In this document: positions 58,865 through 64,000 of the stretch, piece after piece | Position numbering within the stretch: the stretch's first letter is position 1 | Layout: the number at the start of each line of letters is the position of its first letter | Assembly: GCF_008124865.1 (NCBI RefSeq) | Contig: NZ_VNHY01000004.1 | Coordinates: 1-64,000, forward strand | DNA: 64,000 bases | Source: Fodinibius salinus | GTDB taxonomy: Bacteria > Bacteroidota > Rhodothermia > Balneolales > Balneolaceae | Direction: 5' to 3' | Program-made: the position numbers and the translations under genes | Notes under the pieces: generated by a model | Told to the model about the DNA's origin: nothing | Databases searched by the model: none | The model's input: only the letters and a program-made list of their open reading frames with translations

Positions 58865-59701
58865 ATGAAAAACATTTCGCTACTATTAACGATTATAATG
58901 ACTCTTGCTATGGGATTTACCGCATGTGACAACACTGGATCTAATGGTGGAACAGGCACCATGGAAGTTACCATGACCGATGCCCCCACTAATTACGATT
59001 CAGTAAATGTCACCATTAACAAAGTGCGTGTTAACAAAAAAGAAAACGCAGAAACCGATAGTACAGAATCCGATGAGGAAGCTGAAGAAAACGGATGGGT
59101 TACCATCATGAATCAGCAGATGAAAATAAATCTACTAGAATTAACCAACGGTAACCAAATCATGCTTGGTTCCAAGGAACTAGAAGCCGGTACTTATTCA
59201 CAAATTCGGTTTATTTTGGGTGACGATAATACCGTTACGGTAGATGGACAAACTCATCCCCTGCAAACACCCAGCGCAAAACAATCCGGGCTTAAGCTTA
59301 ATGTAGATGCCGAAGTAGAAAACGGTGTAACCTACTCTCTACTTATCGATTTTGATGTTGCTCGGTCTATTGTAGAAAAAGGAAATGATGGATATTTGCT
59401 CAAACCGGTGCTTCGTGCGGTAAATCTTGCAGAAACTGGATCTATTGCCGGAAATGTACAACCCGCAGATTTTAACACCAATGTGCTCGCTGTGCTCGAA
59501 GGCGATACAGTAACATCTACTATCACCGCCGAAAATGGAACCTTCGAAATTATCGGCCTTGCTCCCGATAGTGACTATGAAGTTGTTTTTGATCCCAGCA
59601 GCGATCAGTATTCTGATTCTACACAAACCAATATTAAAGTAGAGGCAGGTAAAGAAACTGACCTTGATACTATCCAGTTAGAACAAAACAGTACTCTTTA
59701 A
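58865..59701 (+). CDS. DUF4382 lipoprotein with carboxypeptidase-regulatory-like domain
   Basis: This 278-residue protein has a lipoprotein signal (MKNISLLLTIIMTLAMGFTAC, lipobox FTAC at Cys21, quoted in part). Residues about 35-190 are a DUF4382 domain: GTMEVTMTDAPTNYDSVNVTI and LELTNGNQIMLGSKELEAGTYSQIRFILGDDN. An acidic patch (residues 60-75) interrupts it. The C-terminal part (about 195-278) is a CarboxypepD_reg-like beta sandwich (GSIAGNVQPADF ... IIGLAPDSDYEVVFDP). Role unknown; probably surface or periplasmic. Confidence 0.88.
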   Translation: MKNISLLLTIIMTLAMGFTACDNTGSNGGTGTMEVTMTDAPTNYDSVNVTINKVRVNKKENAETDSTESDEEAEENGWVTIMNQQMKINLLELTNGNQIMLGSKELEAGTYSQIRFILGDDNTVTVDGQTHPLQTPSAKQSGLKLNVDAEVENGVTYSLLIDFDVARSIVEKGNDGYLLKPVLRAVNLAETGSIAGNVQPADFNTNVLAVLEGDTVTSTITAENGTFEIIGLAPDSDYEVVFDPSSDQYSDSTQTNIKVEAGKETDLDTIQLEQNSTL

Positions 59702-59890: not shown

Positions 59891-60892
59891 ATGAAACGAT
59901 TATCATTACTAATTTCTGTTGTTTTAATTTCACTCTCATTGGCATTTACAGCATGTAATACTACAAATTCAGATGGTGAGGATGGAACACCCGATCCTGT
60001 TCCACCAAGCGAAGCGCAAAACGGGGAATGGACACTGGTTACCTCCTCAGTAGATAATACTATTCACGATGTGGTTATTACCCCCGAAGGAGCCTACGCT
60101 GTAGCAGAAGGTGGCATCCTACTTGAACGGACCCAAGAAGAATGGATTAAAGTTGTCGATAGCGGCGTATCCGGTAACGGCAACAACCTGTTTGGCTTAG
60201 CTAAAACTGCGGATGAAAATAAGCTCTGGATGGTTGGTTCCAGCGGAGCTGTAGGCGAATACAATATATCTACTGGCAATCTTAATGACTTTTCTCAGCC
60301 GATGGATGCATCCAACAATTTCAATGATGTTGCCGTCACCCGAAAGCCTGATGCCACTAATATTTACATAGCCGGAGATTCAGGACAAATGTATTACAAT
60401 TTTGATGACGGCAAAGAAGGGAAATGGAACAGCGTTACCCCGGGTAATGGTTCTGCCATTAACGCGGTCGGATTTTTCAATGATCGGGAAGGGCACATTA
60501 TTGATGCGAATCAATCAGTATTTGTTACCCAAGACGGCGGTACGTGGAACCAAGCTGGTATTGCCGATGCAGATGTTGATTTCGAAGGCATAGACAGTGA
60601 CGGCACAAAAAACGTTCGGGTTTCCGGAGGCAATGGCATGATCTTTACATGGAATGGTTCGGAATGGATGTCCACCAGTGTAGCAGAGGCAACATTAATG
60701 GACATTGAAGTCGATGCTGAAGATCAGAGTGGGTATGCCGTTGGTGGTGGTGCCACGATAATTAGCTACAATGGATCCACTTGGTCACCCCAAGAAACGC
60801 CAACAACCGAAAATATCAATGCGGTTGCGCTGGGATCTGACACACAACCTGATATTGCAGTAGGTGCCGGTGGTACCATCTTGGAACGATAA
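59891..60892 (+). CDS. Lipoprotein with seven beta-propeller repeats
   Basis: This 333-residue protein has a lipobox signal (LSLAFTACNTT, Cys22). After a short linker come seven similar units of about 38-42 residues, each running from an I/V-x-D/A-V segment (IHDVVITPEG, FNDVAVTRKP, INAVGFFNDR, MDIEVDAED, INAVALGSD) to a G-x-G-T/I segment (AEGGILLER, GSSGAVGEY, GDSGQMYYN, GGNGMIFTW, GGGATIISY, GAGGTILER). This is the pattern of a YCF48/BNR-type seven-bladed propeller. No catalytic site is seen; it may be a scaffold or binding protein. Confidence 0.8.
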   Translation: MKRLSLLISVVLISLSLAFTACNTTNSDGEDGTPDPVPPSEAQNGEWTLVTSSVDNTIHDVVITPEGAYAVAEGGILLERTQEEWIKVVDSGVSGNGNNLFGLAKTADENKLWMVGSSGAVGEYNISTGNLNDFSQPMDASNNFNDVAVTRKPDATNIYIAGDSGQMYYNFDDGKEGKWNSVTPGNGSAINAVGFFNDREGHIIDANQSVFVTQDGGTWNQAGIADADVDFEGIDSDGTKNVRVSGGNGMIFTWNGSEWMSTSVAEATLMDIEVDAEDQSGYAVGGGATIISYNGSTWSPQETPTTENINAVALGSDTQPDIAVGAGGTILER

Positions 60893-60915
60893 GTCCGATA
60901 TGGTAACTTTGCAGT

Positions 60916-60948
60916 AAGGCTCCCTTTTTAACGGGGAGCCTTTTTTTT
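60916..60948 (+). terminator. Intrinsic terminator before the histidine operon
   Basis: Arms GGCTCCC (60918-60924) and GGGAGCC (60934-60940), extended by A-T pairs, are followed by eight T. This is a strong terminator, 24 nt past the lipoprotein stop codon, and it isolates the his operon from upstream transcription. Confidence 0.93.
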
Positions 60949-61007
60949 GAAAATGTTTTTATCTCGAGGTCAGTTACAATAGCAGAATTAAATTTTTGCA
61001 GATAAAT

Positions 61008-61015
61008 TATTTTTG
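61008..61015 (+). promoter_or_regulatory. Candidate his operon promoter element
   Basis: TATTTTTG matches the Bacteroidota -7 consensus TAnnTTTG exactly, 35 nt before the leader peptide ATG. The -33 region is weak. The expected start near 61020 would put the leader ORF about 30 nt into the transcript. Confidence 0.5.
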
Positions 61016-61049
61016 TGGATGATTTACAAAAAATGTTATCTTAGATCTG

Positions 61050-61112
61050 ATGCAAGAACAACAGTTCCATATTGATTCCCATCTCCATCATGGCGGTTCC
61101 CACCGTCAATAG
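61050..61112 (+). CDS. Histidine-rich leader peptide of the his operon
   Basis: The ORF from ATG at 61050 to TAG at 61110-61112 has 20 codons, five of them histidine (positions 7, 11, 13, 14 and 18), in the sequence ...FHIDSHLHHGGSHRQ. It lies 82 nt upstream of hisG and inside its presumed transcript. Histidine makes up 25% of a random-size peptide, which is far above chance. It is therefore very likely a leader peptide whose translation senses charged tRNA-His. A hairpin (GGCGGT/ACCGTC, 61092-61107) lies inside it. Confidence 0.75.
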   Translation: MQEQQFHIDSHLHHGGSHRQ

Positions 61113-61121
61113 CATCGCTTT

Positions 61122-61139
61122 AGGTAGCTAATACTACCC
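61122..61139 (+). promoter_or_regulatory. Second hairpin in the his leader
   Basis: GGTAG-CTAATA-CTACC forms a 5-bp stem between the leader stop and hisG. It is not followed by a T tract, so it is not a standard terminator; it could be part of an alternative fold, or a pause. Confidence 0.35.
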
Positions 61140-61194
61140 ACATCTCCCGACATTTCTACAAAACTTTTCTCATTCAATATAATAAACTGTTGTT

Positions 61195-62076
61195 ATGCAA
61201 CGCACTGCCGACTCTAAGACTTCACTACGTATTGCCATTCAAAAATCCGGACGTCTGACCGATAAAACCATTGATCTGTTGAAAGGTATCGGTCTCCGTT
61301 TTGATGATTACAAACGAAATCTGCTGGTTAAATGCCGTAATTTTGATGTTGAGCTCCTGCTCATCCGCGACGATGACATTCCCGAATATGTACAAGACGG
61401 TGTTTGTGATCTTGGTTTTGTAGGAGCCAATGAAACACAAGAAAAAGGTGCTGATGTTACTGTACTTCGTGGTTTGGATTATGGCGTTTGCCGATTATCA
61501 TTAGCTGTCCCTAAAGATGGTAACATCCAATCGGTTGAAGATTTTGAAGGAAAATCAATAGCAACAAGTTATCCCAATATAACCCAAAACTTTTTTAAAG
61601 AACGTAATATCAATGCTGATACGGTTACAATTTCGGGAGCTGTAGAAATTGCACCCCGCCTGGAAGTGGCCGATGCTATTTGTGATCTGGTATCTACCGG
61701 AAACACCTTAAAAGCCAACGGACTCCAAGAGTTAAAATCAATCTTGGAATCGGAAACGCAGCTCATCCGCACCAACAAAAAATTATCGCCAGGCAAAAAA
61801 CAGCTTATTGACAAATTTTTGCAACGGATGGACGGGCACCAGCAAGCCGAGCGCAGCCGGTATATCATGATGAATGCTCCTGAAGAAGCAGTACCACGAA
61901 TCAAAGAGATCATCCCGTCACTCAAAAGCCCCACTGTTATGCCCCTGGCTGATAACGGCATGGTGGCAATTCACACGGTTATCCCAATTGACGAATTCTG
62001 GATAGTAATGGAAAAACTAAAGACCGAGGGCGCAACCGGTATTGTTATCCTTCCTATTGAAAGTATGATATTGTAA
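61195..62076 (+). CDS. hisG: ATP phosphoribosyltransferase, long form
   Basis: This 293-residue enzyme performs the first, committed step of histidine synthesis: ATP plus PRPP to phosphoribosyl-ATP. LRIAIQKSGRLTDKTIDLL is the N-terminal HisG hallmark, and CDLGFVGANET and EIAPRLEVADAICDLVSTGNTLKANGL follow. Length and the C-terminal ACT-like domain (about 220-293, VMPLADNGMVAIHTVIP ... TGIVILPIESMIL) place it in the long, histidine-inhibited, HisZ-independent form. It is followed by hisD after only 2 nt. Confidence 0.96.
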   Translation: MQRTADSKTSLRIAIQKSGRLTDKTIDLLKGIGLRFDDYKRNLLVKCRNFDVELLLIRDDDIPEYVQDGVCDLGFVGANETQEKGADVTVLRGLDYGVCRLSLAVPKDGNIQSVEDFEGKSIATSYPNITQNFFKERNINADTVTISGAVEIAPRLEVADAICDLVSTGNTLKANGLQELKSILESETQLIRTNKKLSPGKKQLIDKFLQRMDGHQQAERSRYIMMNAPEEAVPRIKEIIPSLKSPTVMPLADNGMVAIHTVIPIDEFWIVMEKLKTEGATGIVILPIESMIL

Positions 62077-62078
62077 CC

Positions 62079-63368
62079 ATGAGACAGTATACCTATAGCA
62101 ACTTAACGGAAGAACAGATACAAAAGCTCTGCCAGCGGCCGAAGATGGATTTCAACTCTATCTTCGAGCAGGTTGAGCCTATTATCCAGCGTGTTACTGA
62201 GGAAGGTGACGATGGGATCAACCATTTCACTACTAAGTTTGATGGCGTTACCCCTGACCCGTTGGTCATCAGCCCTGAGAATCAACAGATCAATTTGGAT
62301 AATAAAATTAAAGAGGCCATAGATACGGCATTCGATAATATCTATAAATTCCATAAGGCCCAGCTTCCTTCTACATTAGAAGTAGAAACCATGTCCGGCG
62401 TGGAGTGCAAACGTGTAACTCGTCCCATTCAGCGAGTGGGATTGTACGTGCCCGGAGGCACCGCCATTCTACCCTCTACCCTGATGATGTTAGGCATTCC
62501 CGCAATGTTGGCCGGTTGTTCTACAATTGCAATTGCAACACCGCCTCAAAAAGACGGCTCCATTGCTGATGAAATTTTGTATATCGCCCAAAAGGTCGGT
62601 GCTACACACCTACTTAAAGCCGGAGGGGCGCAAGCAGTAGCCGGAATGGCTTTAGGTACGGAGTCTGTGCCGAAGGTGGATAAAATATTGGGTCCGGGTA
62701 ACCAATACGTAACTGCGGCTAAAATGATGCTTCAAAACAGTGAAGCACAAATAGCTATTGATATGCCGGCCGGACCATCAGAGGTACTGGTCATTGCTGA
62801 TGGCTCTGCCAACCCAGAGTTCGTTGCTGCAGACTTACTTTCCCAAGCCGAACATGGCAAAGACAGTCAGGTGGTGCTGTTGGCTACTGCCAATTTTGAT
62901 TGGAATACATGTAAGCAGGCCATTGCAAAACAAATGGACGATCTACCGCGCAAGGAAGTTGCTCAAAAAGCAATTGAGCAAAGTTTCAGCATTACAGTAG
63001 AAAATATTGAGCAGGCCTTTACATTTTCAAATCAGTATGCCCCTGAGCACCTGATCATCCAGTGTAAAAATCCACAACAATTTGAAGAAAAAATCATTAA
63101 TGCTGGATCAGTATTCTTGGGACACTGGACCCCCGAGAGTGCCGGTGATTATGCTTCGGGAACGAACCATACATTGCCAACTTATGGCTATGCCCGGATG
63201 TTCAGCGGGGTCTCTGTAGATTCATTTATCAAGCAAATAACAATGCAGAAAATTACTGAGGATGGCTTGCAAGCACTTGGCCCCACGGTAGAAAAATTGG
63301 CCGAAATTGAAGGATTACAAGCTCATAAAAATGCAGTCTCTATTCGGCTTGCTGACATAAATAAGTAA
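62079..63368 (+). CDS. hisD: Histidinol dehydrogenase
   Basis: This 429-residue zinc enzyme oxidises histidinol to histidine in two NAD-dependent steps, the last of the pathway. The NAD loop RVGLYVPGGTAILPSTLMML, the signature GPSEVLVIADGSANPEFVAADLLSQAEHG, the catalytic Glu/His in YAPEHLIIQ and the metal-site HWTPESAGDYASGTNHTLPT are all present. Start ATG lies 2 nt after the hisG stop, so the genes are translationally coupled. Normal length. Confidence 0.96.
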   Translation: MRQYTYSNLTEEQIQKLCQRPKMDFNSIFEQVEPIIQRVTEEGDDGINHFTTKFDGVTPDPLVISPENQQINLDNKIKEAIDTAFDNIYKFHKAQLPSTLEVETMSGVECKRVTRPIQRVGLYVPGGTAILPSTLMMLGIPAMLAGCSTIAIATPPQKDGSIADEILYIAQKVGATHLLKAGGAQAVAGMALGTESVPKVDKILGPGNQYVTAAKMMLQNSEAQIAIDMPAGPSEVLVIADGSANPEFVAADLLSQAEHGKDSQVVLLATANFDWNTCKQAIAKQMDDLPRKEVAQKAIEQSFSITVENIEQAFTFSNQYAPEHLIIQCKNPQQFEEKIINAGSVFLGHWTPESAGDYASGTNHTLPTYGYARMFSGVSVDSFIKQITMQKITEDGLQALGPTVEKLAEIEGLQAHKNAVSIRLADINK

Positions 63369-63391: not shown

Positions 63392-64000
63392 ATGAGTAGT
63401 TCATTTAATATTGAAAATTTTGTTCGTCCTAATATTCGACAACTTGAACCTTACCACAGTGCTCGCGAAGATTTTGAAGATGGGTTGCTACTTGATGCCA
63501 ATGAAAATAGCCTGGGTGCACCTTTTACTGATGACAGTAAGCTACATCGCTACCCGGATCCAGCCCAAAAAAGGCTGCGGGGGCTCATTGCCAAATGGCG
63601 GGGTGTTCGAAGGGAAAATATATTTACCGGAGTTGGCAGCGATGAGGGGATCGACCTGTTATTTCGCATCTTCTGCACTCCCGGTAAAGATCGGATATTA
63701 ACGGTCCCTCCTACTTATGGGATGTACACCGTATCTGCTAATATTTACGATATTGCAATTGATGAAGTATTGCTGGAAGAAGAAACGTTCCAGCCACGGG
63801 TAGAGCCCATCCTAAATGCGACAACTCCAGAGACAAAGATTCTATTTCTCTGTTCTCCCAATAATCCAACGGCTAATACTTTTGAAGCTGACAGAGTAGA
63901 ACAACTGGTGGAAAAATTCCCAGGTATTGTGGTAGTGGATGAGGCCTATATCGACTTTAGCGAAGAACCTAGCTGGACTTCAAAAATAGCTGAATATTCA
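63392..64000 (+). CDS. hisC: Histidinol-phosphate aminotransferase, truncated by window edge
   Basis: The first 203 codons are visible, from ATG at 63392, 23 nt after hisD. The protein reads FVRPNIRQLEPYHSAREDFE, then LLDANENSLGAP, GVGSDEGIDLLFRIFC, SPNNPTANTF and VVVDEAYIDFSEEPSW, the hallmarks of HisC (class I/II PLP aminotransferase) up to the DEAYIDF motif. The PLP lysine lies beyond the edge. It converts imidazole-acetol phosphate to histidinol phosphate with glutamate. Confidence 0.95.
   Translation, partial: MSSSFNIENFVRPNIRQLEPYHSAREDFEDGLLLDANENSLGAPFTDDSKLHRYPDPAQKRLRGLIAKWRGVRRENIFTGVGSDEGIDLLFRIFCTPGKDRILTVPPTYGMYTVSANIYDIAIDEVLLEEETFQPRVEPILNATTPETKILFLCSPNNPTANTFEADRVEQLVEKFPGIVVVDEAYIDFSEEPSWTSKIAEYS

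Follow-up and report, generated by a model that had tools for sequence, protein, structure and literature searches.

A histidine-rich leader without a conventional terminator precedes hisG in Balneolaceae

How might a histidine-rich leader control the operon behind it when no conventional terminator stands between the two? The question is raised by the his operon that closes the window, the 64,000-nucleotide stretch of Fodinibius salinus DNA analysed here, where the parts of the operon and its leader region described below lie on the + strand. The leader ORF (61050-61112) comprises 20 codons plus TAG and encodes MQEQQFHIDSHLHHGGSHRQ, with histidine at codons 7, 11, 13, 14 and 18. Sequence and translation confirm what the initial annotation had read here, a 20-codon ORF ahead of hisG with five histidine codons, two of them (13 and 14) adjacent. 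Behind a spacer (61113-61194) follow hisG (61195-62076; PF01634 match), hisD (62079-63368) and hisC (63392-64000, extending past the window end), the last two being ORFs named from a reading of their translations. The genome belongs to the Fodinibius/Aliifodinibius group, and its HisG shares up to 92% identity with that of named relatives. An isolating terminator had been described upstream of the promoter, and it is there: the intrinsic terminator of the upstream gene, a 10-pair stem and then a T tract, occupies 60916-60942 and isolates the his promoter. A consensus scan of 60800-61400 found no second terminator beyond it. Two ORFs upstream of the operon (58865-59701 and 59891-60892) have lipoprotein-like N termini.

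The leader is conserved across the family. We searched 92 Balneolaceae genomes for HisG and obtained matches in 87, at 88 places; upstream DNA was compared for 85 of these, three partial matches (G027, G050 and G070) being left out. A His-rich leader precedes hisG at 79 of the 85 loci, which backs the leader-peptide control proposed from the window. Close relatives without a His-rich ORF had been named as evidence against such control, and none was found, since all 12 genomes of the window's genus that were examined carry one. Histidine makes up 648 of the 1965 leader residues at the 79 loci (33%), whereas reading the other two frames gives 49 and 33 among 2044 (~2%); adjacent histidines (HH) occur in 75 of the 79 leaders. 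Outside the 79 stand L014, where the contig ends 130 nt upstream of hisG and a cut leader is partly readable, and L022, where it ends 63 nt upstream. No His leader was seen upstream of the divergent hisG copies of L162-L164, which were dropped before the 79 were counted. The divergent hisG of the Balneolaceae locus L161 (G036; 47% identity), also outside the 79, is preceded by a His leader and then a strict intrinsic terminator. Of the 18 hisG loci from f5, another family of the order, 16 (L181, L185-L188 and L190-L200) show no His leader, and the stretch ahead of hisG is short.

A cognate-codon-rich short ORF before a biosynthetic operon, one trait of classical attenuators, is present here. 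Rfam covariance models gave no score near gathering in 60880-61400; a Phe_leader match, at 20.5 bits against a gathering threshold of 55, overlaps the upstream terminator and was rejected. In an Rfam scan of 15 loci, 14 had no match, the sole match (L222) was an SRP RNA, and no leader or T-box family was returned.

The leader lies close to its putative promoter. The TAnnTTTG-like element noted initially is present as TATCTTAG (61037-61044), one mismatch away from TAnnTTTG and 6 nt ahead of the ATG, and TTTG at 61012-61015 is a weak candidate -33 element picked by eye. The predicted transcription start is 61049, so that the start codon of the leader is the predicted +2. Among the 79 loci, a TAnnTT[T/A] box stands exactly 5 nt (33 loci) or 6 nt (31 loci) ahead of an in-frame ATG or GTG, 64 loci together, as against 4 box matches together in the other two frames at the same gaps. 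Because leader calling gave starts near a promoter box a bonus, the spacing claim is based on this separate count, which took all three frames. No such box occurs at gaps of 4-8 nt at 13 of the 79 loci, six of them in group g19. The start codon tracks the spacing, with GTG in 32 of 33 gap-5 leaders and ATG in 19 of 31 gap-6 leaders. In flavobacteria the -7 box extends from -12 to -5 (PMC9723704), and the conserved gaps therefore put the leader start at the predicted +1 or +2. Box spacing at 64 of 79 loci hence predicts that the leader mRNA is leaderless. Leaderless mRNAs are rare in this phylum, amounting to 5.5% in F. psychrophilum (PMC9723704), and 5' UTRs shorter than 10 nt make up about 3.7% in B. 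thetaiotaomicron (PMC7366714); the his leader links a predicted leaderless start with regulation. At leuA no leaderless-type sORF was seen in the 12 loci viewed (of 20). A sigma-70-type promoter at 61155-61183 was considered and rejected, promoter-like sites being no commoner than in shuffles (2 found, 1.7 expected).

Relatives also bear out the absence of a conventional terminator. We called a terminator strict when its hairpin had 6 or more pairs and reached -8 kcal/mol, with a T tract immediately behind. Such a terminator follows the leader at 1 of 79 Balneolaceae loci and in 0 of 79 shuffles (one per locus), which here, as in the lenient search, the masked folding and the antiterminator-pairing test below, preserved composition only. 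At comparison loci, which were chosen for a His-rich leader after reading and with their hairpins visible during the choice, strict terminators follow 5 of 15 leaders in the order's other families, 9 of 9 in the class's other families and, elsewhere in the phylum, 14 of 15; the genomes of this last group were placed by phylum only. These loci comprise 9 of 20 from one set, 15 of 21 from a second and 15 from 34 of a third, in which 19 were submitted and 15 gave a leader. By eye, L110 (Melioribacteraceae) likewise has a leader and a terminator. By this criterion, the absence of a terminator after the his leader is family-wide in Balneolaceae.

The window's genus is nevertheless able to make proper terminators, as its trp genes show. 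All 12 genomes examined from the genus have a hairpin CCCACTGCAG..CTGGAGTGGG with a T run upstream of trpE, and in 11 of them a WWW leader was seen ahead of trpE. In the window's own genome (L258; G000 contig C1, upstream of 449192) the Trp leader MEKSTHKNVSWWWLR and then CCCACTGCAG..CTGGAGTGGGCTTTTTT precede trpE, a textbook attenuator. Set against other groups and against trp of its own genus, the his leader shows the departure from textbook attenuation that the initial annotation had suspected. The Balneolaceae his system is attenuator-like and falls outside the classical type, because the intrinsic terminator that defines this type was looked for and is missing.

The two short pairings that had been seen in the window, GGCGGT/ACCGTC and GGTAG/CTACC, are both present. 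The first lies within hairpin P1 at the 3' end of the leader (61091-61108), whose first base is the wobble position of His codon 14. The second forms P2, past the stop codon (61123-61138) and with no T tract behind it. Both hairpins are conserved in the genus: across its 12 aligned sequences, P1 and P2 together have standard pairs in 92.9% of cells (shuffled mean 88.1, 0/500 shuffles) and 11 cells changed on both sides (shuffled mean 5.2, 0/500), while two of five measures fall within shuffle range, namely the 3 pairs with both-side change (348/500 shuffles) and the 6 pair types (198/500). Eight of the 13 pairs are invariant, and the alignment favours P1 and P2 over versions slid along it, the nearest of which (+3) is 62.2% paired.

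More broadly, the end of the leader tends to pair with its own post-stop sequence. In permutations of partners, uncorrected for relatedness and with L005 measured from its own early stop, this pairing is supported in three of four groups: the Rhodohalobacter type (34 loci; beaten by 0/5000 permutations), the window's genus (12; p 0.0018) and the Balneola/Gracilimonas type (24; p 0.016), with p 0.26 in g19 (6). The window's own leader-end pairing is the weakest of its genus (-5.5). Across the genus GGCGG meets the P2 side in different registers, so we claim no one homologous pairing between them, and pairing internal to the leader was set aside, with p 0.038 in one group and 0.40 to 0.90 in three others. 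In 26 comparison loci that carry a strict terminator, the segment preceding the terminator pairs with its 5' arm (mean -9.0 versus -6.8 kcal/mol shuffled, p 1.4e-4), a signal of the antiterminator type that comes mostly from loci elsewhere in the phylum and hardly from the class. Because their pre-terminator segment pairs in this way, the leader-end pairing of Balneolaceae sits at the relatives' antiterminator place.

Masked folding asked how this region would respond to a ribosome, placed either at the second His codon or at the stop codon, and compared the opening of the spacer with that of shuffled spacers. With the ribosome at the stop codon, spacer opening amounts to 0.094 over the 79 loci, versus 0.052 when shuffled (p 0.0017). 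The effect is clear in g11 (0.150 versus 0.065) and g19 (0.196 versus 0.019); a switch is unsupported in the window's genus (0.028 versus 0.056) and in g2 (0.001 versus 0.044).

The spacer itself is C/U-rich and G-poor, and its composition makes it a candidate Rho-loading tract. The composition controls were taken from ATG-started ORFs of at least 120 aa, not from annotated genes. At the 79 loci the 60 nt before hisG contain a mean of 3.13 G and 15.57 C, and 55 control upstream regions, drawn from 45 named loci, have 9.49 G and 12.38 C. At most 4 G are present at 88.6% of the loci (5.5% of controls), and the best C/G ratio in 60 nt has a mean of 5.87 (2.53 in 81 controls). Rho-type C spacing, scored with a pattern that we take to be that of RhoTermPredict, occurs in 43 of 79 hisG spacers and 18 of 81 controls. 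G makes up 6.8% of the whole spacer in Balneolaceae; the figure is 12.9% for the remainder of the order, 21.1% for the class and 17.9% for loci from elsewhere in the phylum. A C-rich, G-poor tract before the gene, as in uORF attenuators of the Rho type (tnaC/toiL), is therefore present at these loci. In the window alone the signal is modest, since at most 4 G occur in 6 of the 28 upstream regions, that of hisG among them, and one of 27 controls exceeds the C/G ratio of hisG. Composition by itself is insufficient to prove Rho. The Rho RNA-binding domain has two matches in the window's genome (G000:C3:312509-312727, in a 494-aa frame, and G000:C2:227572-227784, in a 399-aa frame), which may point to a second Rho-like protein.

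Judged by its codons, frame and position, the mini-gene very probably senses histidine shortage or the charging of tRNA-His. For the output, the missing terminator and the composition of the spacer give Rho-dependent termination within the spacer close to an even chance. The whole, ribosome-mediated his attenuation with a non-intrinsic off-signal that is most likely Rho, we put forward tentatively, as somewhat short of an even bet. On this proposal, the promoter would be so near the start codon that ribosomes load on the leaderless 5' end, as the conserved spacing suggests. When charged tRNA-His is low, the ribosome would stall at the His codons, whose number and conservation point this way. 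The free leader end would then be able to pair with the first part of the spacer, at the place of the relatives' antiterminator, and RNA polymerase would continue. When histidine is ample, the ribosome would reach the stop codon and depart, leaving the bare C/U-rich spacer exposed to Rho, and Rho would stop transcription ahead of hisG or soon after its start, an outcome suggested both by the lack of an intrinsic terminator and by the spacer. The pairing behind a stalled ribosome is supported in other genera, whereas in the window's genus masked folding lends the switch no support.

Spacer composition favours a Rho output; a second feature, confined to the window species, favours a translational step. 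Leader segment AACAACAGTT (61057-61066) is the exact complement of the 10 nt that precede the hisG ATG (61185-61194) and lies within a longer helix. In translational attenuation of this species, leader codons 3-6 would pair with those 10 nt and block initiation, until stalling at the first His codon (61068) brought a ribosome over the segment and freed hisG; Rho might trim the untranslated message, much as for toiL/topAI. The helix is strong. Its fold has an MFE of -34.4 kcal/mol (z -3.07, 1/200 shuffles as good), and at -21.4 kcal/mol it far exceeds the next best of the 79 loci (-8.0). The duplex energy between the first part of the leader and the hisG start is reached by 0/20000 dinucleotide shuffles, but by 3/5000 shuffles of the whole leader. 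Accessibility of the hisG start would rise from 0.36 when the leader is free to 0.52 with a ribosome at codon 7, yet a stall at codons 13-14 would not open it (0.39 and 0.36). Nor is the pairing conserved, as it would be in a translational uORF: strong in the window, it ranks a leader's own partner at a mean of 0.497 over the 79 loci and gives a permutation p of 0.68 in the genus, and at L133, one other of the 79, an exact 10-nt complementarity likewise joins the leader to the hisG start. With own-partner ranks averaging 0.497, the helix is not a family trait, and we reject it as a family-wide mechanism. Since the strong helix is found in the window species alone, translational control stays a live rival there, albeit one that we consider unlikely.

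Attenuation by a degenerate terminator, intrinsic or through pausing, is a good deal less probable. Here P2, or in other genera the stop-codon hairpin, would halt RNA polymerase without a good U tract. Under a lenient criterion a terminator was called at 25 of 79 Balneolaceae loci where 11.3 were expected, so weak terminators may exist in some genera of the family; at the Gracilimonas-type loci L017 and L018, GTGCATTAATTGCAC is followed by CTTTTTTG, and P2 has been kept with changes on both sides. Against this stand the single strict terminator among the 79 loci, the window's P2 itself, which has 5 pairs and is followed by CACATCTCCC, and the proper trp terminators made by the same genus. That the leader is a translated relic, retained after regulation was lost, is very improbable: the f5 loci imply that leader loss is tolerated, since 16 of 18 have no His leader, but histidine richness, frame, start spacing and pairing are kept over the 79 loci, and the gaps within the leader in the alignment of the window's genus measure 6 and 3 nt.

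Our preferred reading, ribosome-mediated attenuation with Rho as the likeliest off-signal, shares parts with several known systems. As in hisL of E. coli and Salmonella, a His-rich leader ORF precedes the his operon and the leader end can pair downstream; unlike hisL, as portrayed in PMC3896937, Balneolaceae have no intrinsic terminator (1/79), a predicted leaderless start and a G-poor spacer. The hisL-type layout was also seen in other Bacteroidota loci that we examined. The leader sORFs of mycobacterial cys genes are likewise rich in cognate codons, with no obvious terminator and with Rho suggested as one possibility (PMC1262725); leaderless polycysteine sORFs, a start that is predicted here, were reported later according to PMC13236596. 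They differ in that they are cysteine leaders of Actinobacteria, later described as translation attenuation, and there is no known homology.

The window helix recalls E. coli toiL/topAI, where the uORF base-pairs with the ribosome-binding site that follows it and has been connected with premature termination by Rho (PMC12121999). The helix could act on hisG in the manner of toiL on topAI; however, toiL is described there as sensing ribosome-targeting antibiotics and no amino acid, and the window helix is unconserved. In S. meliloti trpL the mRNA begins at the ATG of the leader ORF, as predicted here, but that system concerns Trp and is described with an ordinary transcription terminator (PMC7298713). 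Leader-peptide attenuation of amino-acid operons has already been suggested in Flavobacterium (PMC9723704), and potential leader peptides are mentioned for C. jejuni (PMC3847290). In the open-access literature that we searched, we found no description of a terminator-less Balneolaceae his leader; none of the titles named a Bacteroidota his leader, and a paper that mentions hisG does so for other groups only.

These comparisons suggest a history that is speculative and, taken as a whole, rather doubtful. The ancestor would have had a textbook his attenuator, and Balneolaceae would have swapped its intrinsic terminator for a Rho-loading tract, joined by a stop-codon hairpin that acts as an 'anti-rut' switch and by leaderless ribosome loading, with window-like species adding a direct block of the hisG start. 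If true, an attenuator can change its output stage and keep its sensor. The family has a conserved amino-acid sensor with an apparently changed off-switch: comparison loci have a terminator behind the leader, Balneolaceae do not, and trp of the same genus keeps one. Because the off-switch differs between related groups, the evolution of attenuator outputs becomes testable.
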